This document shows, in pieces, positions 12,489-41,528 of a DNA stretch of 64,000 bases (positions within the stretch are counted from its first letter, which is position 1; each line of letters starts with the position of its first letter). The position numbers were made by a program, and so were the translations under genes. This DNA is from Dysgonomonas hofstadii (GTDB lineage Bacteria; Bacteroidota; Bacteroidia; Bacteroidales; Dysgonomonadaceae), in NCBI RefSeq assembly GCF_014196915.1, contig NZ_JACIEP010000010.1:92746-156745 (forward strand), read 5' to 3'. The notes under the pieces were generated by a model, which saw only the letters and a program-made list of their open reading frames with translations, did not search any database and was not told the DNA's origin.

Positions 12489-12983
12489 ATGGGACAATTA
12501 CCTTTAATTAACGAGAAGCTGTTTAAACAGCATTCGCCTGTTACGTCGAGCACCGATATAACAGAGTTTATTCCTTATATACATATAGCGCAGGAACTGC
12601 ATATGTTGGAAATACTGGGACAACCGCTGGCCGAAGAACTGAGCGGGCAAATAGAGACAAATAGCCTGACACCCGAAAACAGCGAACTGATACTTAAAAT
12701 CGCACCGGCATTATCTTTTTTTGCTGTTTATCAGGCGTTACCGTTCCATTGGGCCACAATTGTGAATAAAGGAATTACCATACGTGAAAGCGAAAACAGC
12801 AAGGGTGTAGATATAAAAGATCTTGCGCAGCTTCGCCTGTGGATAAAGAACGACGCCGAAATACTGAAAAAACAATTAATCACTTACCTCGAAAAGAACC
12901 GTGATAAATATCCATTGTGGGCACCTGCTGATAAGTACGAAAACGAAGAAAAATTTGACAGTGGATTTTATTTCAGGAAGTAG
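12489..12983 (+). CDS. Orphan phage protein, DUF6712-like (head-tail adaptor candidate)
   Basis: A 164-residue protein containing TDITEFIPYIHIAQELHMLEILG, an internal ALSFFAVYQALPFHWATIVNKGI segment, and the C-terminal YLEKNRDKYPLW. This arrangement matches from memory the DUF6712 family, which in Bacteroidota prophages follows the major capsid gene. There is no signal peptide or membrane segment. Here it stands alone between aspA and a host DUF4230 gene, 6.7 kb from the capsid module at 19.7 kb and in the same direction. It has its own terminator. The family call is from recall of the pattern and the role is inferred. Confidence 0.65.
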   Translation: MGQLPLINEKLFKQHSPVTSSTDITEFIPYIHIAQELHMLEILGQPLAEELSGQIETNSLTPENSELILKIAPALSFFAVYQALPFHWATIVNKGITIRESENSKGVDIKDLAQLRLWIKNDAEILKKQLITYLEKNRDKYPLWAPADKYENEEKFDSGFYFRK

Positions 12984-13001
12984 AAAACATTTATCAGAAA
13001 A

Positions 13002-13034
13002 GGATGGCAAAAGGCCATCCCTCTTTCTTTTTTA
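13002..13034 (+). terminator. Terminator after the DUF6712-like gene
   Basis: GGATGGC-AAAA-GGCCATCC forms a stem-loop followed by CTCTTTCTTTTTTA, 18 bp after the stop codon. Confidence 0.85.
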
Positions 13035-13036
13035 TA

Positions 13037-13110
13037 CAAAAAAAGAAAAAGGTCACGATATCACATCGCAGACCCCTTTCAACCTTAACACAAACTTTAC
13101 AAAACTATGC
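13037..13110 (-). ncRNA. Candidate small RNA or leader with terminator (motif copy 1)
   Basis: Read on the minus strand: TAGTTTTGTAAAGTTTGTG, then TTAAGGTTGAAAGGGG, an imperfect hairpin (AAGGGGTC...GACCTTTTT) and a T tract (TTTTTCTTTTTTT). A closely similar string occurs on the minus strand at 40283-40376 and more weakly at 46431-46490. No open frame lies inside. It could be a short transcript or a leader remnant. Confidence 0.4.
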
Positions 13111-13189
13111 ATATATAACAATGCATTTTCGAATATGTTTTATTAAAATAGCTTATAAAATACTAAATTTGAAATTTTGGTTTTTATCG

Positions 13190-13798
13190 CTATTTTCTAT
13201 CTTCTTTATAACCTCCATGCCTGAAAGTTATGAGCACATGTTTGAATCCCATAGCCTGTAAAATGGGCCGCAGCAGTGTGACTGCATTTTCACGGCTTTG
13301 CTTGTCTATATCGAGCTTTACGGCTTGTTCTCTCAGATGGGTCTCAGCTGCGCGATAGGCTTCGTCCACAACTTCCGATGTATCCCAGAATCCGTATTGG
13401 ATATTAAATATCCGCGATTTTGAATGGTCTATTTTTGTGTGGCAAATTTCAGGAGCCGGCAATTGCAAACGTATGGAATCGCCGGAGGTATAAATATCTT
13501 CGGGACGCAACCGGGTGAGATCTATGCATCCGATGACCTCACCTGACACTACCAGCGCTGTTTTGGCATTTGGTAACCATCGTCTGACTTTTTTATATTC
13601 TACTATGTCCTGTATACTTAATTTCACTACTTCCAGATTGCCCAGACTCTCTATTTTTTCCACAATCATATTGTGCGAAATCTCCACCTTGCTCTCCCCG
13701 GGGCTTCTGGTGAAAACAAACATCAGCAGCATACCTGTGATAATGCCTGAAATAAGTATCAGAAGGCCTGACCTTTGTTTTACTCCAACTCTACTCAT
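13190..13798 (-). CDS. DUF4230-family membrane-anchored protein
   Basis: A 202-residue protein with one N-terminal transmembrane segment (about residues 11-30, LLILISGIITGMLLMFVF). The soluble part contains VVSGEVIGCIDLTRL and an amphipathic helical stretch around VVDEAYRAAETHLREQAV. The pattern matches DUF4230, a family common in Bacteroidota with no established function. It has a single-pass inner-membrane topology with the bulk outside the cytoplasm (inferred). No operon partner: the next gene on this strand starts about 1.8 kb upstream. Confidence 0.8.
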   Translation of the reverse strand: MSRVGVKQRSGLLILISGIITGMLLMFVFTRSPGESKVEISHNMIVEKIESLGNLEVVKLSIQDIVEYKKVRRWLPNAKTALVVSGEVIGCIDLTRLRPEDIYTSGDSIRLQLPAPEICHTKIDHSKSRIFNIQYGFWDTSEVVDEAYRAAETHLREQAVKLDIDKQSRENAVTLLRPILQAMGFKHVLITFRHGGYKEDRK

Positions 13799-14404
13799 GT
13801 GTAATTTCTTGTTTTGTAGATTACAAAAGTACGTAAATCTTCATGCCACACCAAACAGAGACCATACAGGAGAGCTGTTTCTCACGTTTATAAATATACT
13901 TTATTATAAATTAAGAGCTTGCAATGCGTTTATCGCATTGCAAGCTCACATATGAGGTTTCGCACCTCAACTGCGAAGTTCTATATAGTTGGTTAAGGAT
14001 GGAAGGTGGCTCTATTTTATTCAGATTACCCCTGTACACGCGAAAACCTGCAATAAGAAATACTGCAAGTTTTCATCCTGTGTTGTGAAGCCTGAAGAAG
14101 GCGTTGATTGAATATTTACCTAATGCCTAATACCTAGGGAATATCTTAATTAAACGCCGCCATGTAATATTGTTTTAGCAGACTAGTTTGTCTGTTGTTT
14201 ACCGTGTTATTTTCTTCTCATCCAAATTTAATCAAATTTATAGTACAAATAACGCACTACGTGTTAAAAAAACACATTAGTATTTTCTTTTTTTGAAAAA
14301 AATGGAGAGGTGTTAGGTATATAGGTAACCAGATTCATTGATGATTCCTTAAAATGATTCTTATTTTATCGGTTTCAGAAATAAAACGCAGAATCAGGAC
14401 ATAT
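13799..14404. other. Intergenic region with palindromes, no gene
   Basis: A 606-bp gap. It holds a perfect 14-bp stem at 13915-13947 and a weaker AAAACCTGCA...TGCAAGTTTT pairing near 14042-14072. Beyond that it is AT-rich sequence. No open frame has a plausible start or composition, and no tRNA or IS end was recognised. Confidence 0.6.
13915..13947. repeat. Perfect 14-bp inverted repeat
   Basis: GAGCTTGCAATGCG and CGCATTGCAAGCTC flank a TTTAT loop. No T tract follows on either side, so a terminator role is doubtful. It may be a protein-binding site or a dispersed repeat. Confidence 0.7.
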
Positions 14405-19460: not shown

Positions 19461-19725
19461 ACAAATTTAAGTTAAACAATCGATGTTAATTCGAAAGTCT
19501 ATCACTTATAGCTACATGCATATCCAAATAATTTTCCCCAGAGATTAGCGGATGTTAATGTATTAACATTTTTTCATTAAAACAAGTCTCGAAGAATTAT
19601 TTTACAAAAAAAATCTCTTTTCCTGCATTTTTTTCAAACACAATTATCTATACCTAAAAAACAGTTGAACTGTAGACTGGAAACCAGTTCACTCATAATT
19701 TATAATTTATAACTCATAATTAACT

Positions 19726-20892
19726 ATGAACCTCCCTATCTACAACTGCCTCATCGAAGACGAAGACGACCTGACGGGCATCTGTGCCATATCTTTTGTC
19801 GATTGTCCCGCCAATGAGGTCGATTTTGTTGCGTTGAAACGACAAGAGCAACAGGTTTTTCTCAACCGTGATTCCCGCAAACAAATACTGACCGGCGTAG
19901 TACTTATGCCAGAGCAACTTATTTACCGTCACAGTGAAGAACTGGGTGACTATTATATCCGGTTCTCTGCCGATCAGATAGAGAAGATTGCGCAAAAGAT
20001 GATGCGCACAGGGGTTGCCCTGCAAAACACTACACACCAGCATCAGGCACCACTTAGCGGTAACTACCTCACCGAACTGTGGATAGTGGAAAACCCGCAT
20101 AATGATAAATCGAAAGCATTAGGATTCGAAAACCTTCCCAAAGGGACTTTGATGTGCAGCTACAAGGTCGGAGATAAAGCATATTGGGACACTGAGGTGA
20201 TGGCCGGCCACGTCAAAGGCTTCTCTTTGGAAGGTTTTTTCAATCAACAACCCTATAAACTAAATATCAAAAACAAAAAGAATGTGGACATGAACAAAAA
20301 AAGACCGAAACAATCGCTTCTCGGACGCCTTACACGCATGTTGCTCGACATCGAGGCCGTTACCAAAGCCGATATCACGGCAAGTGGTACGCCATATGTC
20401 GTATTTGTACTGGCTGACGGCAAAGAGGCTTATGTGGATGAGGATGGGTTTGTCACACTCGACGGCGAACAGATGCCTGCCGGAGAACACAAGCTGGCAA
20501 ATGGAAATCTACTGATCGTGGACGAGCAGGGGCAATTTACAGAAACGCGCGAACCATCGCAGAACAAAACTGAGCCGGAAGAAGAAAAAGCACCCCAGAC
20601 GCTGAAACGAAAAAGACAGAAATTATCGGAATTCGATCCTAAAACGGCTGAAGCCCTGAAAGCTAAGATCGCTGAGATGCAGGAAACTATCAATTCTTTG
20701 ACAAATTCGCTCAATGAAGCACAAGCAATGCTGGAAGATACTAAAGGAAAGGTGGAGGAAATGCGTCGCAAAACCCCCTCTGCTCATCCGGTTACACATT
20801 TGTCGGGTACAACAAAGGTCGTAGGCGAAATGACTACCGCCGAACGTATGGCTGTGGCATTGAATCAGACAATAAACAGGAGGAACAATTAG
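19726..20892 (+). CDS. XkdF-like phage prohead protease/scaffold
   Basis: A 388-residue protein. Residues about 1-175 resemble the XkdF-like putative serine protease domain: DDLTGICAISFVDCPANEVDF, GVVLMPEQLIYRH, DYYIRFSADQIEKIAQKMM, then THQH and LTELWIVENP and VKGFSLEGFF. Residues 175-290 carry a charged linker with a short beta domain. About 300-350 form a coiled coil (ALKAKIAEMQETINSLTNS) typical of scaffolds. The combination suggests a self-cleaving protease plus scaffold for head assembly. It is the first gene of the module, and the capsid gene follows after a repeat-filled 141-bp spacer. Confidence 0.82.
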   Translation: MNLPIYNCLIEDEDDLTGICAISFVDCPANEVDFVALKRQEQQVFLNRDSRKQILTGVVLMPEQLIYRHSEELGDYYIRFSADQIEKIAQKMMRTGVALQNTTHQHQAPLSGNYLTELWIVENPHNDKSKALGFENLPKGTLMCSYKVGDKAYWDTEVMAGHVKGFSLEGFFNQQPYKLNIKNKKNVDMNKKRPKQSLLGRLTRMLLDIEAVTKADITASGTPYVVFVLADGKEAYVDEDGFVTLDGEQMPAGEHKLANGNLLIVDEQGQFTETREPSQNKTEPEEEKAPQTLKRKRQKLSEFDPKTAEALKAKIAEMQETINSLTNSLNEAQAMLEDTKGKVEEMRRKTPSAHPVTHLSGTTKVVGEMTTAERMAVALNQTINRRNN

Positions 20893-21033: not shown

Positions 21034-21984
21034 ATGGCAAACATGTATGACATTTCATCACTCACCTATCAGCCGTCGTCTAATATGGACTGGTTTACAA
21101 AAGCTGTATTTGGTGGAAAACTTATCGAAAAGGGAAAGATCACTCCGATTATAGGTGTGAAAGAATCTACCCAACTCAATCTTATCGACCTTGCGGGCAA
21201 TATTCTTCAGACTGACAGTCGCGACTGTGCATGGACTCCGCAACAGATAGCTAAACTAAGCGAAAAAGAACTGAAGGTGAAGACTTACAAGATCAATCTG
21301 GAACAATGTCTCGATGATCTTGAGCGTAAGCGTACTATCTGGATGATGGGCCCGGGTGCAAAAAATATGGAACTGCCCGAATCGCTTGAAGAAGCAACTA
21401 TGGCTTTACTGGCCAATGAGCTTAGCAGCGAGATAGAGACAAAGATATTCAAAGGTGACAGCTCTGCACCAGGAAGCAACGATTTTGACGGTGTAGTCAA
21501 AGTGTTGACTGACAGTGCAGATGCAATCAAAGTTTCGGGTGTAGCACTGACAAAAGACAATGTGCTGAACGAAATAGAGGCGGCCTTTGCTTTTCTGCCC
21601 GATGATGTCGCTGCTGCCGGACTGGAAAAGCAGAGCCTGAATATATACGTTTCGTATGCTACATTGCTGAAAGTGAAGATCGCATTGGGTGGTGTGTTTG
21701 GAACCAATGTTGTAGTAAATCCGAATTTCATAGTGGAAAACGATGTGGTGAAATACCTCGGTGCAGAGATTGTTCCGGTGAAAGGCATTGCCGATAACGA
21801 TATGGTTGTGGCCGAAGCTTCCAATTTCCTTTTAGGTACGGATTTGTTAAATGACTTGGAAGAAATTCGTCTGGGACAGATGGCCGCACCTTACGATAAT
21901 AAGATATTTATCGACGGACGCCTGCGCTTGGGATTCGCTATTCCATTCGAGGACGAAGTGGTTTTTTATAGTCCAAACAATTAG
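21034..21984 (+). CDS. Major capsid protein candidate
   Basis: A 316-residue protein without signal peptide. Its position directly after the protease/scaffold and its composition fit an HK97-type coat protein. It has an N-terminal arm (MYDISSLTYQPSSNMDWFTK), a strand-rich middle, an LLANELSSEIETKIFKGD helix typical of the E-loop/spine region, and a C-terminal NDLEEIRLGQMAAPYDNKIF-FIDGRLRLGFAIPFEDEV segment like the closing beta-sheet of capsid proteins. I base the call on context and fold-like pattern, with no diagnostic motif. Residue length is normal for the class. Confidence 0.75.
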   Translation: MANMYDISSLTYQPSSNMDWFTKAVFGGKLIEKGKITPIIGVKESTQLNLIDLAGNILQTDSRDCAWTPQQIAKLSEKELKVKTYKINLEQCLDDLERKRTIWMMGPGAKNMELPESLEEATMALLANELSSEIETKIFKGDSSAPGSNDFDGVVKVLTDSADAIKVSGVALTKDNVLNEIEAAFAFLPDDVAAAGLEKQSLNIYVSYATLLKVKIALGGVFGTNVVVNPNFIVENDVVKYLGAEIVPVKGIADNDMVVAEASNFLLGTDLLNDLEEIRLGQMAAPYDNKIFIDGRLRLGFAIPFEDEVVFYSPNN

Positions 21985-22102: not shown

Positions 22103-22642
22103 ATGTCTTGTAAATTAACTTCAAATATAACAAAAGATAACTGCCAGTATTCTTTGGCAGGTGTAAAAGCAGTCTATCTGTTCAATTACGATACCGACAA
22201 TAAATACACCATGAGCGCTGACGAAGGCATAGAGACTATTGTCCTGGCCGACGACACATTGAAAGCGTATAAAATCGATTTCGTAGACAATACGGCGTCT
22301 TTTTCCGACGAACTGGCGGTAAATGGGAACGGTGGCAAATACCGTACACATACTGTGAATTTCACGATCAGCAATTACGATTACAACCTGCTCAACCAGG
22401 GAGACAAACTGAGTCTCGGTAAATTTACGGCAGTGGTGGTCGATAAATCCAATAATGCGATCATGCTAGGCCGCAACAACGGGCTTTCTGCTACTGCATT
22501 CAACTATGCTTCGGGAGCAGCCGAAGCCGATGCTTACGGCTGGACTGTGACTATGGCCGGAACAGAGATAGAAATGGGGCGCCTGCTGACAGACGAAAGC
22601 GTTATTTCTTCTATTGCAGACACGACTGTGGTTACTCCGTAA
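22103..22642 (+). CDS. Phage structural protein, CKL paralogue 1
   Basis: A 179-residue, mostly beta protein beginning MSCKLTSNITKDNCQYSLAG and ending with AEADAYGWTVTMAGTEIE. From memory this type of protein is widespread next to capsid genes of Bacteroidota prophages, where its exact role (decoration, connector or tail tube) is not settled. The next gene is a diverged paralogue with the same opening (xxCKLxxNIT..C.Y..GG..AVYL). There is no signal peptide and no transmembrane segment. Confidence 0.7.
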   Translation: MSCKLTSNITKDNCQYSLAGVKAVYLFNYDTDNKYTMSADEGIETIVLADDTLKAYKIDFVDNTASFSDELAVNGNGGKYRTHTVNFTISNYDYNLLNQGDKLSLGKFTAVVVDKSNNAIMLGRNNGLSATAFNYASGAAEADAYGWTVTMAGTEIEMGRLLTDESVISSIADTTVVTP

Positions 22643-22738
22643 TTTAATTAGCAAATTAGCAGATTCGGGAATTAGCAAATGAAATGGGATAATTGGTTCA
22701 TTTGCTAATCTGCTAATTTTCAAATTTTCAAATTGAAG
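22643..22738. repeat. AT-rich TTTGCTAAT spacer repeat
   Basis: TTAGCAAATTAGCAGATTCG follows the stop codon, and TTTGCTAATCTGCTAATTTT with TTCAAATT copies precedes the next ATG. The halves are inverted. It is the fourth copy in the window. Confidence 0.85.
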
Positions 22739-22741
22739 ATT

Positions 22742-23299
22742 ATGACATGTAAACTACTAAAGAATATAACACACACCTGCGAATACAATCCCGGAGGAAT
22801 AGTTGCAGTTTATTTGCTCGATATAAGGGATTTTATCTCGTATAAATTTACTGGTGACGGGCTGTTCGATAGCGGGTTTATCAGCAGTATAGAATCGGGT
22901 GAACCGTTCCGGGAAATAGGTGCTGTGAACGAAAGCGCTTTTACCGAGATACACGATAACGGCATCTACAAACAGCAACTAACCACCTTTATCAGGACGC
23001 TTAGCGGTGAGAAACTTTCCGATCTCCTTCTGGTAGCGGGAAACAAATATATAGTAGCCTTCCGTAATTCACAGGGTAAGGTATATTGTTTTGGCAGCGA
23101 TGGTGGAGCATCTTTGTCGTTTTCGCAGATAAGCGGGCAAACGGGAGAAACGTCAGGTTATCAGGTCTCTATCACGAAAAATTCTGTTTATCCTTTATTC
23201 GAGGCAGATGCCGGTCGGTTCAATACGATTCCTGTATTAGGTACCGAAGATCTACGGATTGTAATGACGGAGAATTATGAAGAAGCAATATTAATTTAG
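22742..23299 (+). CDS. Phage structural protein, CKL paralogue 2
   Basis: I choose the ATG at 22742 (MTCKLLKNITHTCEYNPGGI) over an upstream TTG because it aligns with the start of paralogue 1. The resulting protein has 185 residues. It keeps the opening motif and a related C-terminal SGQTGETSGYQVSITKN segment but diverges strongly between. Duplication followed by specialisation is the simplest reading. Both may form parts of the same particle layer. It is followed by a palindromic element. Confidence 0.7.
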   Translation: MTCKLLKNITHTCEYNPGGIVAVYLLDIRDFISYKFTGDGLFDSGFISSIESGEPFREIGAVNESAFTEIHDNGIYKQQLTTFIRTLSGEKLSDLLLVAGNKYIVAFRNSQGKVYCFGSDGGASLSFSQISGQTGETSGYQVSITKNSVYPLFEADAGRFNTIPVLGTEDLRIVMTENYEEAILI

Positions 23300-23395: not shown

Positions 23396-23827
23396 ATGAC
23401 AAATGATACAAGAAAACAAAGCCCTGTAGAGCTATCGCAGCTTCCACCGATAGAGGACCCGGTCGGATTCTGGATATTCGGGTCGAAGAGCGATAGTCAG
23501 GGAAATTTCGAGTCGGGACGGTACGAATTTACACGTTTGGCCGATTATGCCCGTAATCTTCAATTGGAAAGACGTATTTCCATTACTATGGAAACCGATG
23601 ACTTTGAGATGTTCATAGGGGAAGAAATGACTATATACCGGATTGTTGCTAAAAATGTGAAAACGCTTTATGTCAATGGGGACGATATTGGAGATTTCGA
23701 TCCTGATGTAAATCTGGAGGATATTACCATACCAAAAGGTTCGGTAATGAATATACATATAGAGCGTTTGGGCACCGATACCAAAGCGTACTTATTTATT
23801 CACGCGAAAGCAAAAATAGAATACTGA
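23396..23827 (+). CDS. Phage module protein, unknown function
   Basis: A 143-residue protein with a proline-rich N-terminus (VELSQLPPIEDPVGFWIFG) and a beta-rich body ending VMNIHIERLGTDTKAYLFIH. The PPIEDPVGFWIFG start resembles N-terminal tags seen on fibre-associated phage proteins in Bacteroidota, but I cannot name the family. No signal peptide. The stop codon overlaps the next start by one base (TGATG), so translation is probably coupled. Confidence 0.65.
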   Translation: MTNDTRKQSPVELSQLPPIEDPVGFWIFGSKSDSQGNFESGRYEFTRLADYARNLQLERRISITMETDDFEMFIGEEMTIYRIVAKNVKTLYVNGDDIGDFDPDVNLEDITIPKGSVMNIHIERLGTDTKAYLFIHAKAKIEY

Positions 23828-24045
23828 TGATTTACGAAGTGAAATATACTGTCCGCAATGAAGAGGATGGGACGGATGAAGTGAAAATATTTGAGATAGA
23901 TGATCTGGTTATGTTCGATGATCAACCGGGAGAGTTTAAGAGATTATTCAATAGCCGTGAACAATGTGATATGATGGAATTTGATAATGCAACAGTGATC
24001 ACACTATCTACAAACAGAGTGTTAATTACATTAAAAGAAGAATAA
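23827..24045 (+). CDS. Small acidic phage module protein
   Basis: A 72-residue acidic protein (MIYEVKYTVRNEEDGTDEVK...) with no recognised domain. It is translationally coupled to the gene before it and followed six bases later by the large fibre gene. A chaperone or small connector role is possible, but no evidence in the sequence decides it. Confidence 0.6.
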   Translation: MIYEVKYTVRNEEDGTDEVKIFEIDDLVMFDDQPGEFKRLFNSREQCDMMEFDNATVITLSTNRVLITLKEE

Positions 24046-24050
24046 AGATA

Positions 24051-25928
24051 ATGGAATATACATTTAAAGATGAATATTATGGTGTATCCAACCTGCCCGT
24101 GATAGAAACGGGTATGAATACGACATTTTTTGTATCCGGATCAGTAAAAAAAAGTACAGATGGAGTGGGTACAAAAGAAAACCCTTACTGTTCTTATAAC
24201 AAGACATTTGCCGCCCCGACTGCGGGTAATCCCAGTTATAATGTAGAAATATTTTCTGACGGATATCATAAATTGTCTTTTTTCAGAAATACGGCAGCCG
24301 GGAGTAGTCAGTTCATCGGAAATAATATGAGAACTTGTTACTTGGATGGAAATATGACTTGTAACGGTTCATTTTCACGAGCATATTTTTTTCGTATGAA
24401 ACTGAACCTGAACATTACCTGGACGGGAGGAAATAACTACGTAAATGCTTTTTACTATTGTGACATATTGAATATATCACAAATAAGTTATACCAATATA
24501 CTTACATTCTATAATTCGATAGTCAGATTTAATTCAACAGCTGGTGGAAATAATAACTCCTATGTAGGCATCAATAGCAAAACCATCACCAACAACAACC
24601 TCTCCTTAGTTGAAAAATGTAATGTCGATATCAATCAGTCTGTTTTGACCTCTTATGTCGATTTATATTACGCATTCAGCGATTGCAATTTCAGGATAGG
24701 TAACGAAACGGGCTATACTTCGCTAACAGGGGAAACCGAAGCGGAACTAAGAGCAGATTTTATCCGCCGTTGCGACGAGCAGGGGCTTACCTATACCACA
24801 AAGACCGAATACGGAGAAACTTTGCCGGTGTATCGTTGGGTATTTGCAAAAAAATCATCGCATGATGGTGCTGTTCTGCCCAATAGTATAATTCATGATT
24901 TTGAGAGAAGACGAAAGGTCTATTTCGGTTATACATCTTGTCGTGAAGGAATTTTGGTAAGTGATGCGGTGAATGTTCCCAACTCCATATCTATGGGCAA
25001 TCCCAATCAAAATATCGAGATATTCGATAATGCGGCTAAATTGCCGTCCAATAGTGATATCTTAACAAAGGTAACTTCAAAGATCCAATCCAATATTTGC
25101 TGGCTGGGAGGACTGAAGCAACTGACAGGCGCTGATGTTGTACATAATTTTGATATGAAATACGGATTGGCTGTTGATACTTCCGAAAATATAGAATCTA
25201 CACCAGCTCAATCAGGAGATATCGAGCCCGGATCTTATTATGTTGTCAGATCTGTTGATGAAGATATTGCAACTATCGATTATAATGGCACAAGTTATTC
25301 ATCATCATTGGCCGAGCGTAAGAATATATTTTTAGGCGTTTTGGGACAGACAGAGTTTGCACAGAGTACGAATGCCACTCTTTACAAATTGACAGGGCAA
25401 CTCCAGTACAGGCATATCGATATGCGTATCGCAAATAAAATACCTGATGAAATCATCAAAACAGGCAGTTTGGCCTCTGGATATTGGTATCTGGTGGAAC
25501 ATGATAGTGATCAGGAGAATACGACAGATTATGTCACTTACAAGGGTGTGAAATATCCTGCAACATCATCATTTCTGACAGATAATAGTAATTTGGCTTT
25601 TACCACAACGGGCAATATCCATCTAAGAAGATGCTGGAAAGAAGACTTTGATTATGGTGTTGAGGCCATTGACAAAGATTTCTGGAAAAACGAGCAGAAG
25701 CCAAAATGGTTTAAAGTGATTGGCTCGGATTTAAGATGCCTGATGAAGCGGAACGTTGAAATTGAGAACGAAATGCAAATTGATGAAAATGGAGATTATA
25801 TCACTTCCGGACATCCGCAATTTTACAAAATTATAGTTGGTGATAATGGAACCCTGTTGCCTTCATTTCCTATTAAGGGAGCATATATGCAGATAAGATT
25901 AGTAATAAGTACCTTAAATCCTATGTAA
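24051..25928 (+). CDS. Large beta-rich spike or fibre protein
   Basis: A 625-residue protein. Residues about 85-250 have short repetitive Asn/Ser/Tyr/Thr-rich strands (YVNAFYYCDILNISQISYTN, GGNNNSYVGINSKTITNN) as in right-handed beta-helix spikes. Residues about 385-520 carry two copies of a GSYYVVRS...TIDYNGTSY / GYWYLVEHD...YVTYKGVKYP module. Each copy ends with an F..TTTGN or F.QSTNA.LY/LR motif. This duplicated module is common on phage adhesins. Host-surface binding is inferred. The gene starts five bases after the preceding stop. Confidence 0.68.
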   Translation: MEYTFKDEYYGVSNLPVIETGMNTTFFVSGSVKKSTDGVGTKENPYCSYNKTFAAPTAGNPSYNVEIFSDGYHKLSFFRNTAAGSSQFIGNNMRTCYLDGNMTCNGSFSRAYFFRMKLNLNITWTGGNNYVNAFYYCDILNISQISYTNILTFYNSIVRFNSTAGGNNNSYVGINSKTITNNNLSLVEKCNVDINQSVLTSYVDLYYAFSDCNFRIGNETGYTSLTGETEAELRADFIRRCDEQGLTYTTKTEYGETLPVYRWVFAKKSSHDGAVLPNSIIHDFERRRKVYFGYTSCREGILVSDAVNVPNSISMGNPNQNIEIFDNAAKLPSNSDILTKVTSKIQSNICWLGGLKQLTGADVVHNFDMKYGLAVDTSENIESTPAQSGDIEPGSYYVVRSVDEDIATIDYNGTSYSSSLAERKNIFLGVLGQTEFAQSTNATLYKLTGQLQYRHIDMRIANKIPDEIIKTGSLASGYWYLVEHDSDQENTTDYVTYKGVKYPATSSFLTDNSNLAFTTTGNIHLRRCWKEDFDYGVEAIDKDFWKNEQKPKWFKVIGSDLRCLMKRNVEIENEMQIDENGDYITSGHPQFYKIIVGDNGTLLPSFPIKGAYMQIRLVISTLNPM

Positions 25929-27869: not shown

Positions 27870-27872
27870 GGA

Positions 27873-27977
27873 GGGGATCGAGGCTGTTAATCAGGAAGTT
27901 TGTTTCCCAATTGTCCCGGTTGGGAATAGATGTGGATGAAGCTTCGGTCAGGGAATTATACAATAGCCTCGATCCCC
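27873..27977. repeat. Perfect 13-bp inverted repeat at the start of the spike gene
   Basis: GGGGATCGAGGCT at 27873-27885 and AGCCTCGATCCCC at 27965-27977 flank the TTG start. An inner CCCAA...TTGGG pair lies at 27906-27924. The hairpin could control translation or mark a recombination scar. Confidence 0.7.
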
Positions 27978-29881
27978 ATATCAAGGAAAATGCAAAAATT
28001 ATTTTATTGCCGGTAGCAACTGCTACCGGTACAGTGTATGCCATGGATAACGAAACAGGAGAACCTGTGTCTTTTGATTTTGCACGGGCGTCTTCTGCTA
28101 CACACTTCTCTTCAGACCGGCATATCGGTGAAGCCGGCATAAATGTTCCCCGTATCGACTATGGAAACTATTCGGACAATACGAAATTATTGATCGAAAA
28201 AGCCAGTACAAACCTTTTAGTAGATTCTATGTTGAACTTAGGTTTATCAGAAAGTGGTATTTCTACAAGTTCAAAAATTGATATCAATTGGTATAACTTC
28301 TTTAGTAAAGCTGCTAGTTTACACAAACCTGCGGAAGCTCCGAATTATAGTTATCTGTATAAAAATGTGACATATAGTAATGATGGGTATTATATAGCGA
28401 GTTTCTTTACAAGAACACCTACTGGAGTTGCTCCCAAAATAACAAGTGTGTATAATACATCAGATGTAAAAGTATCTGTTCGTAATGGAGGAAGTACAAA
28501 TCAAACTCTTTATGATTCGGTGGACGGCACTACATTTAGAGTGTCGGGTATTGCAAATGTAGTTGATACACCAAACACAGGAGGTGCTGGAGCTGCAAAA
28601 CGATACGATAATTTAGAGGGAGACATATACGTTACCGGATATCAGTTAGAGACAGGTACAGGGATATCATCTTATATTCCGACGTCTGAAAGTACAGTAA
28701 CCCGTTCGGCAGATCTGCTAAAGTACACGTTGAATAAGCCTGTAAAAGCTATGATTAAAACAGTTAATAATGGTGTTATTGAACTGGAATTACCAATAGG
28801 AGAGTGGAATATACATGATGACATTCCTACTAGTGATGGAATAGAATATATTGTCTTATTGGATACAGAGGCTACACTGGAAAATACATTTATACCTTTA
28901 GTAAAGGCTGATGGTGGAATTGTGGATGAAAACGCTTTATCAGAAGCATATAACGCTTTAACTGATGAAGAAAAAGATTCGGATGCGGTGATTATACCGG
29001 GTGCTTATACAGACGGTTTTGTTTATGGCATAAATAAGGATTTCTCTTTTGTTAAGTTGCCATTTGGCAGGTCATCGTCTGCAACTTTGTTCGATAAGGA
29101 CATGAATTTAGTTGTAACTGAATCTAATATGCCACGTATTGACTATGGTAATTATTCACAAGACGTTAAATTATTGATTGAGAAAAATGCGACTAATAGC
29201 TTGATATTCAATGGGATAATAGCTCAAAATGGTACGTTGACAAGAGTGGCAGAAAAGTATGAGAACGCTAGATTATATAGAGAGAGTGATACCAATACGT
29301 ATCATAGAGTGGCTATAAATTTAGAAGCGGTGGGTACTGAAATATCAAAACTAGCAGTGTCTGCCCTTGTTAGATATGATGGAACTCGAAAATATGCGAT
29401 AATGCGATTAACTGGTACAACTAATAATATGGGCACTATCGATTTAGAGAATAAATTAATTACTAATACAATAGCGGGTCTTAACATAAAAGTGGAAAAT
29501 TTAGGTAATGATTGGATGCGAATTTTAGCAAATGTAGATAATCCAAATTCAGAAGCATTAGTATTTTGGTTAACATCTTCTTTAATACCTGATTCTACAT
29601 CAGCCGTTCCTGCATTCGAGGGTGACCCGACACAAGGATTTGTATACGCTTTGGCACAAGCTGAAAAAGAGTCTGATGGTAATACATCAATTATCCCTAC
29701 TACAACATCCGCTGTTACCCGTTCGGCCGATCTTCTCTCTTATGATCTGGCGCGGGATTGCACTGTATATCTGAAAACGACTAAGCAGGAGATAACTCTA
29801 AACAAATTAGCAGGTATATGGAATATCCATGAAGATTTAAACAATGAAGGGATAATTTCAATACTTATCAAAAACAATTAA
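27911..29881 (+). CDS. Phage spike/fibre protein with duplicated binding domain
   Basis: A 656-residue protein. Two related domains, residues about 30-270 and 350-625, each carry FxxARASSAT / FGRSSSATLF, then NVPRIDYGNYSDNTKLLIEK / NMPRIDYGNYSQDVKLLIEK, and each ends TRSADLL-Y. This FARASSAT...PRIDY...LLIE pattern is typical of phage head-spike or tail-fibre carbohydrate-binding domains. The first start codon in frame is TTG at 27911, and the frame stays open back to 27842, so the true start is uncertain. Receptor or glycan binding is inferred. Confidence 0.75.
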   Translation: MSRLGIDVDEASVRELYNSLDPHIKENAKIILLPVATATGTVYAMDNETGEPVSFDFARASSATHFSSDRHIGEAGINVPRIDYGNYSDNTKLLIEKASTNLLVDSMLNLGLSESGISTSSKIDINWYNFFSKAASLHKPAEAPNYSYLYKNVTYSNDGYYIASFFTRTPTGVAPKITSVYNTSDVKVSVRNGGSTNQTLYDSVDGTTFRVSGIANVVDTPNTGGAGAAKRYDNLEGDIYVTGYQLETGTGISSYIPTSESTVTRSADLLKYTLNKPVKAMIKTVNNGVIELELPIGEWNIHDDIPTSDGIEYIVLLDTEATLENTFIPLVKADGGIVDENALSEAYNALTDEEKDSDAVIIPGAYTDGFVYGINKDFSFVKLPFGRSSSATLFDKDMNLVVTESNMPRIDYGNYSQDVKLLIEKNATNSLIFNGIIAQNGTLTRVAEKYENARLYRESDTNTYHRVAINLEAVGTEISKLAVSALVRYDGTRKYAIMRLTGTTNNMGTIDLENKLITNTIAGLNIKVENLGNDWMRILANVDNPNSEALVFWLTSSLIPDSTSAVPAFEGDPTQGFVYALAQAEKESDGNTSIIPTTTSAVTRSADLLSYDLARDCTVYLKTTKQEITLNKLAGIWNIHEDLNNEGIISILIKNN

Positions 29882-29883
29882 TA

Positions 29884-30180
29884 ATGGAAACAAAATACTA
29901 TTCGTGTAAAGAAAAACAAGAATTGACAGATGCTTTTAAAAAAGTAACCGATCTTTCAGAATTAAACAACTATGATGATTGGAATATCAGCATAGATATT
30001 GTAGGGAAAGTTAATACCACTCCATCAATTTATGACGAAGAGGGCAATATTATAGAAAAAAACGAACCCACATGGACAGATTTCTTATTTAATGTAATCT
30101 TTGTAACAAACCGGTACATAGATTTATTTAAAGACTTTAAAGAAGAAAACCCTGAAACCCCATTCCGTAAATTCGCATGA
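29884..30180 (+). CDS. Small acidic phage module protein
   Basis: A 98-residue protein with no signal peptide, beginning METKYYSCKEKQELTDAFKK, containing IYDEEGNIIEKNEPTWTDFL and ending in a basic/acidic tail. It starts two bases after the spike stop codon and overlaps the next start (ATGA). The position suggests a fibre chaperone or spike-associated protein. The family is not recognised. Confidence 0.65.
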   Translation: METKYYSCKEKQELTDAFKKVTDLSELNNYDDWNISIDIVGKVNTTPSIYDEEGNIIEKNEPTWTDFLFNVIFVTNRYIDLFKDFKEENPETPFRKFA

Positions 30181-30587
30181 GAAACAGATTATACCGGTTT
30201 TATTTGTTCCTGGTAATAGTTGTGGCTATTGCCTTTCCGGCTTGCCGTACAAAAATGATGTATGTGCCTGTCGAAAGTGTCAGAACAGAATATCAGGAAC
30301 GGATAATCAAAGATTCACTTCATCTTTACGATTCAGTATTTGTGAAACTGAAGGGGGATACGGTTTGGCTGGAAAAGTATAAATATCTCTATCGGGACAG
30401 GTTCCTTCGTGATTCAGTTTTTAAGACAGACTCCATACAGATACCCTATCCCGTTGAGGTTGAGAGAGAAATCAACAGGCTGACCTCCTTCCAGTCTTTC
30501 CAGCTATGGTGCGGGCGGATATTGATCTTATTGTTTGTCGGATTGCTTGGAATCAGATGGATGAAAAAAGATTATATAAATAAATGA
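30177..30587 (+). CDS. Candidate unimolecular spanin (lipoprotein with C-terminal membrane helix)
   Basis: A 136-residue protein with an N-terminal signal peptide and lipobox (AIAFPAC, Cys about 22). A charged, extended periplasmic stretch (residues 25-100, with VRTEYQERIIKDSLHLYDSV) follows. Near the C-terminus a single transmembrane helix (ILILLFVGLLGIRWM) is followed by a short basic tail. An outer-membrane lipid anchor plus an inner-membrane helix in one chain is the layout of unimolecular spanins such as T1 gp11 (established). Such proteins fuse the membranes in the last step of lysis. Its place at the end of a module with holin and amidase fits. The call is from topology, not homology. 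Confidence 0.65.
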   Translation: MRNRLYRFYLFLVIVVAIAFPACRTKMMYVPVESVRTEYQERIIKDSLHLYDSVFVKLKGDTVWLEKYKYLYRDRFLRDSVFKTDSIQIPYPVEVEREINRLTSFQSFQLWCGRILILLFVGLLGIRWMKKDYINK

Positions 30588-36783: not shown

Positions 36784-36906
36784 AACTATTGATAATCGCT
36801 TACTTAATAATGTAAATATACTATGATTTTATGAATTTTTATTTCGATTATCTATTCTAAAAACGGTGGATTTAAATAAATAACATAAATACAAATAAAA
36901 AGAAGT

Positions 36907-37242
36907 ATGGGTGCCTTAAAGATCGAATGTTTCTGCAATGAGAAGCAGATGGAAAAAATTGTTGGTATGGTGGCCGGTCATCTGACAGATTGCGATAGAA
37001 CTGATATCGCCGATTTTGATGACATGGTAGATGGTGTACGCGTGTGTGCGGAGTTTGAGACATATATGGATGCTGTAAATGTAAAGACGGCCGAAATACT
37101 GGATGGTGACTGGGATCTGTTGTATGAAGATTCTGCGGTATTTACCTCACGCTTGCGGACTGTGGTAGATGAATACAACCGCCGCCAGAGTGATTACAGG
37201 TATCAGGCGCACCATGTCGTGCAGGATCGGTGGGAAGATTAA
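36907..37242 (+). CDS. Small acidic protein, first gene of the early module
   Basis: A 111-residue acidic protein with no signal peptide: MGALKIECFCNEKQMEKIVG, then TDIADFDDMVDGVRVCAEFE and a C-terminal RRQSDYRYQAHHVVQDRW. No family is recognised. It is 24 bases upstream of the small membrane protein gene. Its promoter at 36752 appears to drive the operon. It may be a regulator or a counter-defence factor of the phage, but no motif supports a choice. Confidence 0.65.
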   Translation: MGALKIECFCNEKQMEKIVGMVAGHLTDCDRTDIADFDDMVDGVRVCAEFETYMDAVNVKTAEILDGDWDLLYEDSAVFTSRLRTVVDEYNRRQSDYRYQAHHVVQDRWED

Positions 37243-37266: not shown

Positions 37267-37470
37267 ATGAAGAAAGTGTGTTTAATTATTGCCAACTGGC
37301 TGTTTTCATTTATTTTACTCATATATAACGGAGATAGTCTGATGCTGGTTTTTTTTGTTGTGGCTTACTTCTCTGTGGCTTGTTTGTTACTCAATAAGTA
37401 CAGCAGGCAGGTAAATGAGGTGCTGAACAGGATGAATGACCGGATAGATAGAATCTTGTCGGGCCGATGA
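37267..37470 (+). CDS. Small membrane protein of the early module
   Basis: A 67-residue protein with two transmembrane helices (LIIANWLFSFILLIYN and LMLVFFVVAYFSVACLLL) and a basic/helical tail (NEVLNRMNDRIDRILSGR). A clear AAGGAG precedes the ATG by one to two bases. The stop overlaps the next start (ATGA at 37467-37470), indicating coupled translation. The function is unknown. Confidence 0.7.
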   Translation: MKKVCLIIANWLFSFILLIYNGDSLMLVFFVVAYFSVACLLLNKYSRQVNEVLNRMNDRIDRILSGR

Positions 37471-38048
37471 CTTACATAGACCTCATTAATGCAGTATGGG
37501 AGCTGAGAGAGCAGGGGGTTATCACCATGTATGAACACGATCTGTACAGCTATCTTTTGCATAAGTGTAACCGCCTGAGCTGGAAGAATCCTTTCTATCA
37601 GTCTTCTTCGATAATGTGTGCTGTACTTGGTATTAACCGCAATGCACTGATGGATAGGCGTAGAAAGCTGAAGCAGCTGGGATTGATAACTTACAGAGAG
37701 GGCACAGCCAAAACCCGCCCTGCTGAATACCGGATACTGATGGTAGATAGTAGCAGGTACCTGGACACAGGCAACCGGAGGCCCAAAAGTAAAACAAAAA
37801 AAGTGCAGCAAACAGGTGGCATATTCAAAAAGCCATCACTGGCAGATGTAGTCACCTATTGCCGCGAGAGGGGGAGCGTAACAGATGCACAGGCATTTTT
37901 TGACTTTTACGAATCGAAAGGCTGGATGATAGGCCGCAATAAAATGAAGGATTGGCGTGCGGCTATAAGAACATGGGAAAAGAAGCAACAAGCGGTACGG
38001 CACAATTCAGCCGATCATGACAATGAAAAAAGATATGAAAAATTTTGA
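37467..38048 (+). CDS. Phage replication-initiator-like protein
   Basis: A 193-residue protein. The N-terminal 95 residues look like a winged helix (YLLHKCNRLSWKNPFYQSSS, LGINRNALMDRRRKLKQLGL). After a basic linker comes a C-terminal region with ADVVTYCRERG...FFDFYESKGWMIGRNKMKDW then RAAIRTWEK. The F-FYESKGW-G-MKDW-AA--W signature is typical of DnaD-like or O-like initiators in Bacteroidota phages and plasmids. It overlaps the DnaC-like gene by 32 bases. The expected role is origin binding and helicase loading with that partner. Confidence 0.8.
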   Translation: MTYIDLINAVWELREQGVITMYEHDLYSYLLHKCNRLSWKNPFYQSSSIMCAVLGINRNALMDRRRKLKQLGLITYREGTAKTRPAEYRILMVDSSRYLDTGNRRPKSKTKKVQQTGGIFKKPSLADVVTYCRERGSVTDAQAFFDFYESKGWMIGRNKMKDWRAAIRTWEKKQQAVRHNSADHDNEKRYEKF

Positions 38049-38622
38049 ATCGATAGCAGCCGGTATGCAGCGTCTGCAGATGCCTGTCCCGGACGAAAGG
38101 TTAATGGTGCGCATTCCGGGAGCGGAAGATGTGCTTGCAGCCGGACTCAGGTATTTCCTTTCCAGATCGGGGGGAGAGATGCAATGGTTGCCCGAGTATG
38201 GTCAGGTAGCTTCGTGGCTCACCGACAATGAGGGTAGGGGGCTTTTCCTTTACGGGAACTGCGGGCGTGGCAAAAGCCTGTTGTGCAGGTATGTGATTCC
38301 GGCCATCCTGCTGGGGTATTGCCAGCGTGTAGTGTCGGTTTTCGATACATCGGAGATGAACAGCCGGCTCGATTATGTATTGTCACGCAATCTGATCAGC
38401 CTAGATGATATAGGAACCGAGGAGGTGAGTAATGTGTACGGAAATAAACGGCTGGCTTTTGCCGAAATAATGGATTCTGCTGAAAAATATGGTAAACTGG
38501 TCATTGTGTCATCGAACCTGACTGTGGCTGAAATTAAAAAACGCTATGGAGACCGTGTGCTTGACCGTGTAGTGGCCACAACAAAGCGGGTCTTGTTTGA
38601 GGGGGAAAGTCTCAGAAAATAA
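38017..38622 (+). CDS. DnaC-like helicase-loader ATPase
   Basis: A 201-residue P-loop protein: Walker A in GLFLYGNCGRGKSLL (the GxxGxGKS form here is GNCGRGKS), Walker B in LISLDDIGTEE, sensor 1 in LVIVSSNLT and an arginine-rich C-terminus (YGDRVLDRVVATTKRV). This matches DnaC/IstB-type AAA+ loaders. Start codons at 38017, 38023 and 38035 are all possible. The overlap with the preceding initiator-like gene supports a joint role in loading replicative helicase for phage replication. Confidence 0.88.
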   Translation: MTMKKDMKNFESIAAGMQRLQMPVPDERLMVRIPGAEDVLAAGLRYFLSRSGGEMQWLPEYGQVASWLTDNEGRGLFLYGNCGRGKSLLCRYVIPAILLGYCQRVVSVFDTSEMNSRLDYVLSRNLISLDDIGTEEVSNVYGNKRLAFAEIMDSAEKYGKLVIVSSNLTVAEIKKRYGDRVLDRVVATTKRVLFEGESLRK

Positions 38623-38649: not shown

Positions 38650-39261
38650 ATGAAACTGGGAAACAGTAAAGGAAATAACACCGGTAAGAAATATCACATA
38701 CGTAAGCGTGACGAACAGAAGGAGCCAAAACCCGCAAACCAGAAAAGGGCAGAGGAATTTAACAAATGGTTTGCTGAAAATTATCAGTTACTGATAAATT
38801 TCCTGATATCAAAAAATTCGTACGACGAAGATGTTTTCAATGCAACTTATATACGTATGAGCGAGAAATTGTTGTTCACAGGCGAGAAAATAGACGATTA
38901 CAGGGCTTACTTCCATCGCTCCTATTATACTAATTATATTCTTGACAAAACAAGGGAATCGCGTTATGTACCATTGCCTTCCTATACCAACCTGGAAGCG
39001 CATCACAGCAATCCGTACGAAAGAGAGTGGATGCAGACGAAGCTGGAACTTGATATTTTCGATTATGTGTACGATCGTTACGAGCTCAGGGAATTCGAAC
39101 TGTTTAAGATGTATATAAGCCTCAAGCCGGCTATAAATTATCATACACTGGCGCAGATCACACATGTACAGGTGCATAATATTCAGCGTATCGTATCGAG
39201 GATTCTTTCCGATATACGTAGCAACAAAGAGTTGGTAGGCAGATACAAGGAGATAGGATGA
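38650..39261 (+). CDS. Sigma-70-like phage transcription factor
   Basis: A 203-residue protein with a basic N-terminus (GKKYHIRKRDEQKEPKP), a region-2-like helical segment (EEFNKWFAENYQLLINFLI, DEDVFNATYIRMSEKLL, FHRSYYTNYILDKTRESR), and a C-terminal HTH-like YHTLAQITHVQVHNIQRIVS with VSRILSDIRSNKE. The layout resembles ECF-type sigma factors used by Bacteroidota phages for late transcription. If so it would activate a late promoter. No such promoter was located. A foldback element follows its stop codon. Confidence 0.7.
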   Translation: MKLGNSKGNNTGKKYHIRKRDEQKEPKPANQKRAEEFNKWFAENYQLLINFLISKNSYDEDVFNATYIRMSEKLLFTGEKIDDYRAYFHRSYYTNYILDKTRESRYVPLPSYTNLEAHHSNPYEREWMQTKLELDIFDYVYDRYELREFELFKMYISLKPAINYHTLAQITHVQVHNIQRIVSRILSDIRSNKELVGRYKEIG

Positions 39262-40118: not shown

Positions 40119-40271
40119 ATGTTTATAATAAAAGAAATCAGAGTGATAGGTGTCACCCGCCTGAAGGTAGAAGTGGAGACGGATAATATTGAAGAGTTTC
40201 GTCGCGAGTGTGCCCGTACTTATAAAGTGAAGTTGAGGCAGATAAAATTCATATATGAAGAAAGGGAGTAA
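40119..40271 (+). CDS. Small 50-residue protein of the early module
   Basis: The open frame ATG 40119 to TAA encodes 50 residues: MFIIKEIRVIGVTRLKVEVE, then TDNIEEFRRECARTYKVKLR and QIKFIYEERE. Alternating charged and aliphatic residues suggest a compact beta-beta-alpha-beta fold. It has an AT-rich upstream region and sits between foldback copy C and the candidate small RNA. The codon pattern looks coding, but no homologue is known to me. Confidence 0.55.
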   Translation: MFIIKEIRVIGVTRLKVEVETDNIEEFRRECARTYKVKLRQIKFIYEERE

Positions 40272-40282
40272 ATCCGGATAGT

Positions 40283-40376
40283 AAAAAAAGAAAGGGCTGT
40301 TGCGTCACGCATAAGCCCTGTCCAACCTTGAGACAAACTTAAAAACTACGCGGGGTAGTAATATGCTGATGTTTTG
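40283..40376 (-). ncRNA. Candidate small RNA with promoter and terminator (motif copy 2)
   Basis: On the minus strand a -7 box TATCTTTG (40382-40389) is followed by TAGTTTTTAAGTTTGTCTCA then AGGTTGGACAGGGCT. The hairpin AGGGCTTATGCG...AACAGCCCT ends in TTTCTTTTTTTAC. The part before the hairpin is about 80 percent identical to 13037-13110. A transcript of about 95 bases, antisense to the gap before the repressor gene, is predicted. It has no open frame. Confidence 0.5.
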
Positions 40377-40389
40377 TAAGGCAAAGATA

Positions 40390-40733
40390 ATATAATAAAT
40401 CTCAATAATAAATCTCGATAATGGAATAATTCTAATGTATATAGTATTATTTCAAAGTTACTTTTTCGGTTTGGTTAATGATTTTAGGCAGAAAAGGACG
40501 CATTTTAGTGCGCCCTGTCTAACAAAACAATCCCTATGAGAGGATTATTCAATTGTCCTGTACATGTATTCTTATGCTGTTGTTCTTGTGTTTATCTATC
40601 GTGCCTTTTGATATTCAATAACAAAGGTAATGGTAGTTGTGTAAAATAGCAAGTGTTATGTTGAAAAATAAGTTTAATTTCTATTTATGTGTTGGTATTT
40701 TTCTAAGTGCTCTTATTTGTAAACGTAAAAGAA
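40390..40733. other. Non-coding region upstream of the repressor gene
   Basis: This AT-rich stretch holds an imperfect palindrome around GGACGCATTTTAGTGCGCCC (40496-40516) and a smaller AATCC...GGATT pair near 40529-40546. Either could be a repressor operator or a terminator for leftward transcription (TCCTTTTCTGCC on the minus strand). No open frame seen. Confidence 0.5.
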
Positions 40734-40762
40734 TTGTCTTTAATTGAATAATGCTATCTTTG
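40734..40762 (+). promoter_or_regulatory. Promoter of the S24-type repressor gene
   Basis: TTG at 40734-40736 and TATCTTTG at 40755-40762 with an 18-bp spacer fit the -33/-7 pattern, giving a leader of about 35 bases. Confidence 0.6.
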
Positions 40763-40802
40763 TTATATAACTCATATTTTACACTGGACTATTTATATTA
40801 TT

Positions 40803-41528
40803 ATGATCTCACAAGAAGACAACACACTGACACAAAAAGAGCGTATTCTGAAATTTCTGGAACAACAGGGTATAACTAAGAATAAGTTCTACATGCAAAC
40901 TGGTATATCTAATGGCACCCTCGATAAAAAAAGCGGTGTCACAGGTGATACTATAACCAAGATCCATGCTGCCTATTCCGATTTGAATCTCGATTGGCTG
41001 ATTGCAGGAGAAGGAGAGATGCTGAAGTCTTCGGTTTTCTCTATTCATAGCGATCTCAAGTCGATACGTGACCAGTATGCGGCTATTGTAAACATCGATC
41101 CGGATGATATTTCCGAAAAGAATATCATAAATATGGAATCCCCGCTTGAGTTTGTTCCTATATTTTCGTATAGGGAATCTCATCCGTGCGAGGGCTATCT
41201 GTCTATACCCAAATTGGGTAACTGCGACGGAGCCGGATATGTGAAAACCGATAGTATGTACCCTCTGATAAAGCCGGGCGACATAGTTTGTTATAAGACT
41301 GCCAATAATACCAATCTCATACATTGGGGCGAAATGTATATTATTTATATCTTTATCGACGGAGAAGAATATCTTACCATAAAGAAAATTGAGAAGTCTG
41401 ATTTCGATGATGAGTATGTACGTCTGACCGGATATAATCAGATATATCAGCCAAAAGACATTCCGTTGAAAAACATACAATGGAAAGCTTTGATAAAAGC
41501 GCATGTGAGCTATAATTCTATTATGTAG
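40803..41528 (+). CDS. Phage repressor with HTH and S24 (LexA/CI) peptidase-like domain
   Basis: A 241-residue protein. Residues about 10-65 form an HTH (RILKFLEQQGITKNKFYMQT, then GISNGTLDKKSGVTGDTITK). The C-terminal half has S24 features: GAGYVKTDSMYPLIKPGDIV with Ser in DSMYP as the likely nucleophile, and EYLTIKKIEK with Lys as the partner. The cleavage site would be an Ala/Cys-Gly near CEGYLS or CDGAG. CI-like repressors of this class keep prophages silent and are inactivated by RecA (established for the class). It is the last gene of the early module, in the same direction and with its own promoter. Confidence 0.88.
   Translation: MISQEDNTLTQKERILKFLEQQGITKNKFYMQTGISNGTLDKKSGVTGDTITKIHAAYSDLNLDWLIAGEGEMLKSSVFSIHSDLKSIRDQYAAIVNIDPDDISEKNIINMESPLEFVPIFSYRESHPCEGYLSIPKLGNCDGAGYVKTDSMYPLIKPGDIVCYKTANNTNLIHWGEMYIIYIFIDGEEYLTIKKIEKSDFDDEYVRLTGYNQIYQPKDIPLKNIQWKALIKAHVSYNSIM

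Follow-up and report, generated by a model that had tools for sequence, protein, structure and literature searches.

Gene transfer agents (GTAs) have been defined by six features (Kogay et al. 2022, PMC9662315): proteins of caudoviricete origin that build tailed particles, a cargo of mostly random host DNA, complete endogenization that often involves several loci, a genome of their own that does not fit whole into the particle, mainly vertical descent with host codiversification, and DNA delivery to other cells. RcGTA-type agents (Rhodogtaviriformidae) are described there as built from caudoviricete-derived genes, often at several loci and mostly inherited vertically, and the GTAs of Brachyspira (VSH-1) and Bartonella as tailed phages domesticated independently, in other hosts and from other ancestors. 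The small terminase of RcGTA is the subject of a separate paper (PMC6854486). FpGTA of the gut anaerobe Faecalibacterium, which is probably podovirus-like, has its head genes in one operon and its lysis and tail genes in another; in one strain some 125 kb separate the two (PMC12946183). The same paper states that GTAs have been characterised in a limited number of lineages and that lateral transduction has been reported in Bacteroides; the word Dysgonomonas is absent from its main text. Among the literature matches listed, from a search without preprints and most subscription papers, none described a GTA in Bacteroidota. Here we analyze phage-derived genes in a 64,000-nucleotide stretch of Dysgonomonas hofstadii DNA (the window; positions 92746-156745 of contig C10 in the 5.04 Mb draft genome G000). 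We think it likely that they belong to a domesticated, gene-transfer-agent-like system of the genus.

That conclusion is drawn from four observations taken together: a phage gene set is scattered among host genes, kept across the genus and a sister genus, under purifying selection and marked by a common promoter-like element. The original prediction, made from the window's letters, had described three phage-gene blocks separated by ordinary chromosomal genes, and matches to Pfam and PHROG families confirmed the blocks (12489-12983, 19726-30587 and 36907-39261) and, wherever an intervening gene matched a family, its chromosomal nature. The three blocks are not the whole set. We found at least ten units on two contigs: the tail genes n182-n145-n554, the portal, the tail gene n230, a tape-measure-like gene, a DUF6712 gene, the head/lysis operon, the replication/sigma-like operon, a pair of small genes near 71.5 kb, TerL and a long tail gene on contig C14. 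The stated lack of terminase, portal and tail genes thus holds for terminase and portal inside the window, where a tail-protein match does lie at 27911-29881; portal, TerL and tail genes are elsewhere in the genome.

Among 25 Dysgonomonas genomes, TerL was found in 23, the portal in 22, the sigma-like gene in 21, and the capsid and protease in 18 each. These counts take in a capsid with an internal deletion in G004, a protease fragment in G022, a portal and TerL split across contigs in G024 and a broken sigma-like remnant in G016. For the 18 good genomes the figures are 17 for TerL and portal and 15 for capsid and protease. In the sister genus g3, all six genomes have the portal and TerL (one TerL partial) and five have the capsid; across 101 genomes of the family, TerL occurs in 34, the portal in 31, the sigma-like gene in 29 and the capsid in 25, some of them distant. 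The same blocks persist in related genomes, where other genes lie in between, the pattern that the original prediction had named as the sign of a domesticated, distributed system. In G019, a single contig, TerL (4,539,011) and the capsid (5,016,906) are 478 kb apart, and in G034, also a single contig, TerL, portal and capsid are spread over 184 kb. Both distances far exceed those in phage-like relatives.

We estimated dN/dS by the Nei-Gojobori method from pairs with dS < 0.9, many other pairs being saturated. Genes of packaging, head, lysis and replication and the sigma-like gene gave values of 0.01-0.14. For the capsid, protease and sigma-like genes, for which low values had been proposed as a check, they were about 0.02-0.14. 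The fastest-evolving product, a 625-aa protein of the head/lysis operon, gave 0.17 in its sole unsaturated pair and 0.21-0.30 in saturated ones. TerL retains its Walker A motif, NE pair and three nuclease acids in 26 of 26 sequences; in the protease, the His and Ser motif columns are intact in 15 of 15. The genes of the system are under purifying selection.

These data bear on the other half of the original prediction, a prophage broken by rearrangement, taken here as one in decay. Parts have indeed been lost in G016, G021, G023 and G004, and the predicted lack of an integrase stands insofar as none was noticed among annotated genes, no genome-wide search having been made. No contiguous prophage was seen at the site in this lineage; the system is much more compact in D. 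mossii and in some metagenome relatives, and for these the prophage idea keeps part of its force. Against decay, most of the 25 genus genomes and the sister genus retain the dispersed set, dN/dS is well below 1, catalytic motifs are intact, and DUF6712 has its own promoter-like element where it is separated from the portal. Low dN/dS across species led us to reject decay for the lineage as a whole, and we consider this explanation improbable.

Comparison of upstream regions placed the sequence TTATCTAT close to the start codons of the scattered units, usually in the bipartite form AT-N15-TTATCTAT. Upstream of 703 open reading frames (ORFs) of at least 120 aa it was the commonest of 168 letter permutations, occurring 64 times against a mean of 7.9. 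Its reverse complement lay upstream of 20 ORFs, and the shifted overlap TTTATCTA also scored highly, as expected. Within 150 bp of the start, TTATCTAT was present at 70 of 106 lead genes and at none of 114 operon-internal genes; other permutations averaged 2.0 in the lead set. By lead gene, it preceded TerL in 12/21, portal in 14/17, DUF6712 in 6/14, tape measure in 9/13, n230 in 8/9, n182 in 8/8, protease in 10/15 and the first gene of the replication/sigma-like operon (36907) in 3/9. Orthologous sites were counted one by one. The test was not blind, since the element had originally been spotted at the first five lead genes, and n230, n182 and the tape measure joined the set because the element pointed to them (45/76 without these three). 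At the 70 sites, position -17 was A in all 70 and position -16 was T in 60, and neither had been selected for; TerL of this genome has the A and lacks the T. The n230 and n182-n145-n554 genes were first noticed through the element; contiguous phage-like contigs then turned out to have homologues of them in matching order.

In the window, the bipartite form had 5 matches against 0.60 expected (none of 100 shuffles reached 5), and three of them precede the three blocks. TTATCTAT alone is not unusual there, with 8 matches against 5.1 expected and 16 of 100 shuffles reaching 8; only its position and bipartite form are. Of 13 bipartite sites in the 162.5 kb read from this genome, 9 stood before phage-derived units, and over all stretches read the figure was 58 of 87, with starts anchored by homology. 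In the sister genera, TTATCTAT preceded the portal at six of six distinct loci, the protease at six of six and TerL at five of six. Upstream of the portal it was missing from the L184/L212 locus, which is more distant, and from the phage-like contigs L210 and L211.

The DUF6712 gene had its own element in all six genomes in which it is separated from the portal and in 1 of 17 in which it is adjacent, the one exception having the largest portal gap (1,426 bp). In the sister genera it directly follows the portal and has no element of its own. G007 and G023, where DUF6712 was not found, and G004, whose copy lacks the N-terminus, are not in this count. The six genomes with a separated gene fall into a single group of the portal tree, so they may reflect one or a few events and are not independent loci. 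Shared control, which the original prediction had ascribed to a repressor and a sigma factor, found a counterpart in the common promoter-like element rather than in the S24 repressor, which was seen in only two other genomes.

The features of the window are as follows.

12436..12460, plus strand: bipartite promoter-like element of the DUF6712 unit, from the window scan.
12489..12983, plus strand: DUF6712 protein (PF20459, E 5.5e-32).
19627..19651, plus strand: promoter-like element of the head/lysis operon, also upstream of the protease in congeners and sister genera.
19726..20892, plus strand: head maturation protease, S78_2/XkdF-like (PF14550, 1.4e-10; phrog_3017, 4e-10).
21034..21984, plus strand: probable major capsid protein, HK97-type (phrog_11320, 6.8e-60; phrog_1623, 7.9e-10).
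22103..22642, plus strand: conserved structural protein (phrog_19091), readable in 14 genomes.
22733..23299, plus strand: related structural protein, matching the N-terminal part of a 581-aa protein of an element in G017.
23396..24045, plus strand: two small conserved late-operon genes, recognised by synteny.
24051..25928, plus strand: fast-evolving 625-aa protein, 28-41% identical in congeners.
25930..26163, plus strand: small late gene, from comparison with congeners.
26178..26660, plus strand: holin (PF05105, 1.1e-7; phrog_199).
26644..27048, plus strand: amidase endolysin, Amidase_2 (PF01510, 4.9e-15; phrog_822, 3.4e-61).
27633..30180, plus strand: variable tail/adhesin cassette of three genes, 27633-27869, 27911-29881 and 29884-30180 (phrog_5939, 1.5e-36).
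30177..30587, plus strand: spanin-like protein, conserved in its place after the lysis genes.
36831..36855, plus strand: promoter-like element of the replication/sigma-like operon, with exact TTATCTAT in 3/9 genomes, this one included.
36907..37242, plus strand: first gene of that operon, from comparison with congeners.
37467..38622, plus strand: replication-initiation-like protein and DnaC-like helicase loader (phrog_15768, 1e-22; phrog_3277, 5.8e-27).
38650..39261, plus strand: sigma-like putative regulator, with a homologue in phage-like relatives.
40803..41528, plus strand: S24/HTH repressor-like gene (PF00717, 5.3e-8).

Units outside the window are given next, negative positions lying upstream of it.

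-11061..-13709, minus strand: tail genes n182-n145-n554, homologous to tail-module genes of contiguous phage-like contigs.
-7388..-6264 (C10:85357-86460), 6.3 kb before the window: portal (phrog_11226, 4.6e-65).
-3206..-3898, minus strand: tail gene n230, homologous to a tail-module gene of the same contigs.
-2622..-172: tape-measure-like gene (phrog_1506, 1.8e-5).
71.5-72.1 kb: two small genes matching phage genes that adjoin the small terminase in contiguous phage-like contigs.
C14:98896-100068, second contig: TerL (phrog_2, 5.2e-34).
C14:109599-112712: 1,037-aa tail protein (46% over 1,063 columns), preceded by the element.

The portal, the tape measure and four tail genes thus all lie within 14 kb upstream of the window. 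The portal query came from a related element in G017, whose capsid is 38% identical to that of the window. The TerL search with phrog_2 gave one convincing match and two weaker ones (4.6e-8 and 5.6e-4). An element inside the 5' end of the tape-measure-like ORF suggests that its true start is later. On contig C1 of G019 (L087, L088, L034), the tape-measure-like gene and n230 each occur in two copies, and the bipartite element stands upstream of both tape-measure copies and of one n230 copy. The DUF6712 protein is a probable head-tail connector; its gene comes straight after the portal in the sister genera and the phage-like relatives. Among phage records it had matches in only two Microcystis phages, at 24%.

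Between the blocks, genes with a family match are chromosomal (DUF4230, MBL hydrolase, glyoxalase-like VOC, pirin, hexapeptide acetyltransferase and YjbR/MmcQ); matches to matrixin/metzincin and T9SS-type families were weak, and several genes gave no family match. Genes for sucCD, a fumarase-type lyase and MaoC adjoin the blocks. A bipartite element at 8612-8636 (plus strand) lies upstream of sucC, the gene for succinyl-CoA synthetase beta, with some 11 bp between its end and the gene, and TTATCTAT is upstream of sucC in G019 and G005 as well; this element may be due to chance, a relic of a lost unit or the mark of a host gene drawn into the regulon. Another, at 3600-3624 (minus strand), lies near a minus-strand ORF start at 3579, antisense to a plus-strand ORF. 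The head/lysis block is itself listed in IMG/VR as a 12.6 kb viral contig (L020, IMGVR_UViG_2830022421_000003), with 100% identical proteins and the T9SS-type gene included.

The capsid model was of low confidence (pLDDT 49.6), with TM < 0.3 and only two Foldseek matches at E <= 0.001, so only the top ranking was used, in which all 26 best matches are to chains from structures of phage capsids or vertices. For the 22103-22642 protein a fold identity was sought and dropped, since the model (pLDDT 50) had no meaningful Foldseek match. Searches of PDB profiles with alignments of the capsid, the 22103 protein and the sigma-like protein gave nothing significant. A protein compartment or an empty capsid without DNA was weighed as well; in its favor, capsid and protease are the most visible parts within the window. 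Encapsulin-type compartments have an HK97-fold shell with cargo and no portal or terminase partners. Here portal and TerL occur alongside the capsid, and conservation of capsid and protease goes together with that of portal, TerL, tape measure and tail genes, which makes such a compartment the least probable of the explanations considered.

The late genes also bear on a domesticated killer particle, which would use its tail to kill competitors and transfer no genes, whether or not it packaged host DNA; the defective phage PBSX is an example. Such a particle would keep the same genes. The 625-aa protein, with no match in phage records, is a candidate receptor-binding tail part or putative adhesin, and a fastest-evolving adhesin would suit a killer, as would the tail cassette at 27633-30180, which is present in few congeners, repeated in G008 and variable between species. 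However, the TerL nuclease, portal and head protease are constrained more strongly than a killing tail alone needs, and known killer particles are contiguously encoded. We regard this explanation as unlikely, though worth more weight than the compartment. For the spanin-like protein at 30177-30587, inspection by eye found an N-terminal hydrophobic stretch with a lipobox-like FPAC at its end and a C-terminal membrane segment.

The sigma factor of the original prediction survives as a conserved sigma-like gene, but its identity as a sigma factor is weak. The window protein had no Pfam match and no significant PHROG match, and its alignment no significant PDB match. One of 15 relatives matched Sigma70_r2 at E 0.058. 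Profile matches of the sigma-like protein to gp33 of Nonlabens phage P12024S and to an ECF sigma encoded beside the portal were only weak. That ECF sigma gene (-8177..-7515; L085:11823-12485, plus strand) is directly upstream of the portal and matches Sigma70_r2 at 1.2e-16. As a candidate regulator it was set aside, its only relative among the sequences compared being in L208. The S24 repressor-like gene may not be part of the system at all, its membership being doubtful given the two other genomes noted above, a count that refers to the stretches compared.

To examine descent, we compared gene trees and distances with those of rpoB in 14 of the 25 genomes, those in which rpoB, TerL, portal, capsid and protease were all readable. 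Sequences with one stop in the matched stretch were dropped (TerL of G029 and G030, capsid of G031); these stops fall at the last-but-one codon and are probably ordinary gene ends. Mantel correlations with rpoB protein distances were 0.62-0.80 for TerL, portal, protease, DUF6712 and the 22103, 22733 and 24051 genes, with none of 2000 permutations as high. Under label shuffles, about 0.3 splits were held in common with rpoB on average, and the observed number was reached in 0-8 of 2000 for six genes. Descent thus appears mainly vertical, with gene trees that are only partly congruent with rpoB. Capsids of the genus form two sequence groups that follow species distances poorly, which suggests that capsid alleles are likely to have been exchanged between species.

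Some relatives have these genes in one piece. Contig NZ_FQZN01000044 (39.3 kb) of Bacteroides stercorirosoris and a contig of a Rikenellaceae metagenome-assembled genome have the tail genes and portal in one compact order. A compact order is likewise found in 12 IMG/VR contigs (L275-L286; portal at 47-55%), of which seven measure 37-40 kb; in the stretches covered, TerL occurs in 10, DUF6712 in 11 and the sigma-like gene in 8 of the 12. In L210, the one annotated further, genes for helicases, a small terminase and an endolysin were identified as well. D. mossii (G001) and metagenome contigs L272-L274 have a compact cluster in which TerL sits amid the tail genes. These forms can be arranged as a series from contiguous phage through compact chromosomal cluster to wide dispersal, in a direction that we infer.

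The compact order in G001 and L270-L274, together with the listing of such stretches as viral contigs in IMG/VR, might instead indicate a prophage or satellite that is still mobile though vertically carried, with the compact forms (D. mossii, L272-L274) live and the dispersed forms derived. In G001, however, a T9SS-type gene stands between the sigma-like gene and the small-terminase candidate, and the sister genus g3 is dispersed too. We consider a mobile element of this kind very improbable.

Several findings weigh against a gene-transfer-agent-like system. The D. mossii cluster, spanning about 36 kb, could in principle fit one headful. The 162.5 kb read from this genome yielded no small terminase. 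By these searches, G021 and G023 keep TerL and portal and are without protease and capsid, and in G016 none of TerL, portal, protease and capsid was found and the sigma-like remnant (C178:11040-11153, L263) is broken. The G004 capsid gene is internally deleted, its match being limited to the first 90 codons (C22:93363-93632, L018), beside a later operon gene. A related metagenome contig, L022, has a full-length capsid match. G021 is also without the sigma-like gene and keeps the element at its portal, so the element's reader may be another protein. Of the 87 bipartite sites, 29 lie away from recognised phage-derived starts, 7 of these preceding tape-measure-family ORFs. The capsid tracks rpoB weakly (Mantel r 0.33, 1 of 2000 permutations), each gene tree has only 2-6 splits in common with the rpoB tree, and the two splits each of capsid and DUF6712 were equalled or beaten in 82 and 66 of 2000 label shuffles. 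Finally, particles, packaged DNA and transfer are inferred.

With these points counted, a domesticated gene-transfer-agent-like system is still the explanation that we favor. In the mechanism that we propose, a dedicated regulator would read the promoter-like element in some cells; the sigma-like protein (38650-39261), whose own operon carries the element in some genomes, would be the best candidate. The units would then be expressed together and tailed particles would assemble. TerL would fill them with chromosomal DNA, a proposal made because no contiguous phage genome exists to package. Holin, endolysin and the spanin-like protein would lyse the cell and release the particles, which might deliver their DNA to neighboring cells; delivery is the least certain step. 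We see an even chance that this is an independent GTA lineage in Bacteroidota whose genes scattered stepwise, each departing fragment taking along a copy of the single dedicated promoter that a phage-derived sigma-like factor recognizes, such that a late regulon became a chromosomal regulon and the contiguous-to-dispersed series is still visible in living species.

If the favored explanation is right, particles for sharing DNA are built into a host-associated genus, and its split units would allow common control after the dispersal of a domesticated phage to be tested directly. The promoter-like element is a simple genomic handle for finding further members. Chromosomal stretches, the head/lysis block of the window among them, are meanwhile catalogued as viral contigs.

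Set beside the definition of Kogay et al., the system has caudoviricete-derived proteins by similarity (TerL, portal, tape measure, capsid, holin and amidase) and is endogenized at multiple loci, with at least ten units on two contigs of this genome and a 478 kb spread in G019. Its inheritance appears mostly vertical with host codiversification for seven of eight genes, the capsid being the eighth. As to packaging of its own genome in full, the 478 kb and 184 kb spreads point one way and the D. mossii cluster of about 36 kb the other. The contiguous genome of an ordinary prophage was not found in G000, G019 or the g3 genomes.

The contiguous Bacteroidales phage-like contigs have homologous portal and tail genes but differ in their single compact order and in having no TTATCTAT upstream of the portal in the two checked, L210 and L211. 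Phage P12024S has distant counterparts of TerL (30%), portal (22%) and capsid (25%), in a 35.7 kb phage genome in one piece. RcGTA-type agents, with which we compare by description only, resemble the system in their caudoviricete-derived genes, several loci and mostly vertical inheritance. Unlike them, the Dysgonomonas system has its nearest phage-like relatives in Bacteroidales, comprises at least ten units with a common promoter-like element before units, and is described here at the level of its genes. VSH-1 and the Bartonella GTA are likewise similar by description, as independent domestications of tailed phages, and differ in hosts and ancestors. FpGTA, as described, shares the placing of head and lysis/tail genes in separate operons, whereas the Dysgonomonas system has a tape-measure gene and at least ten units and belongs to another phylum.

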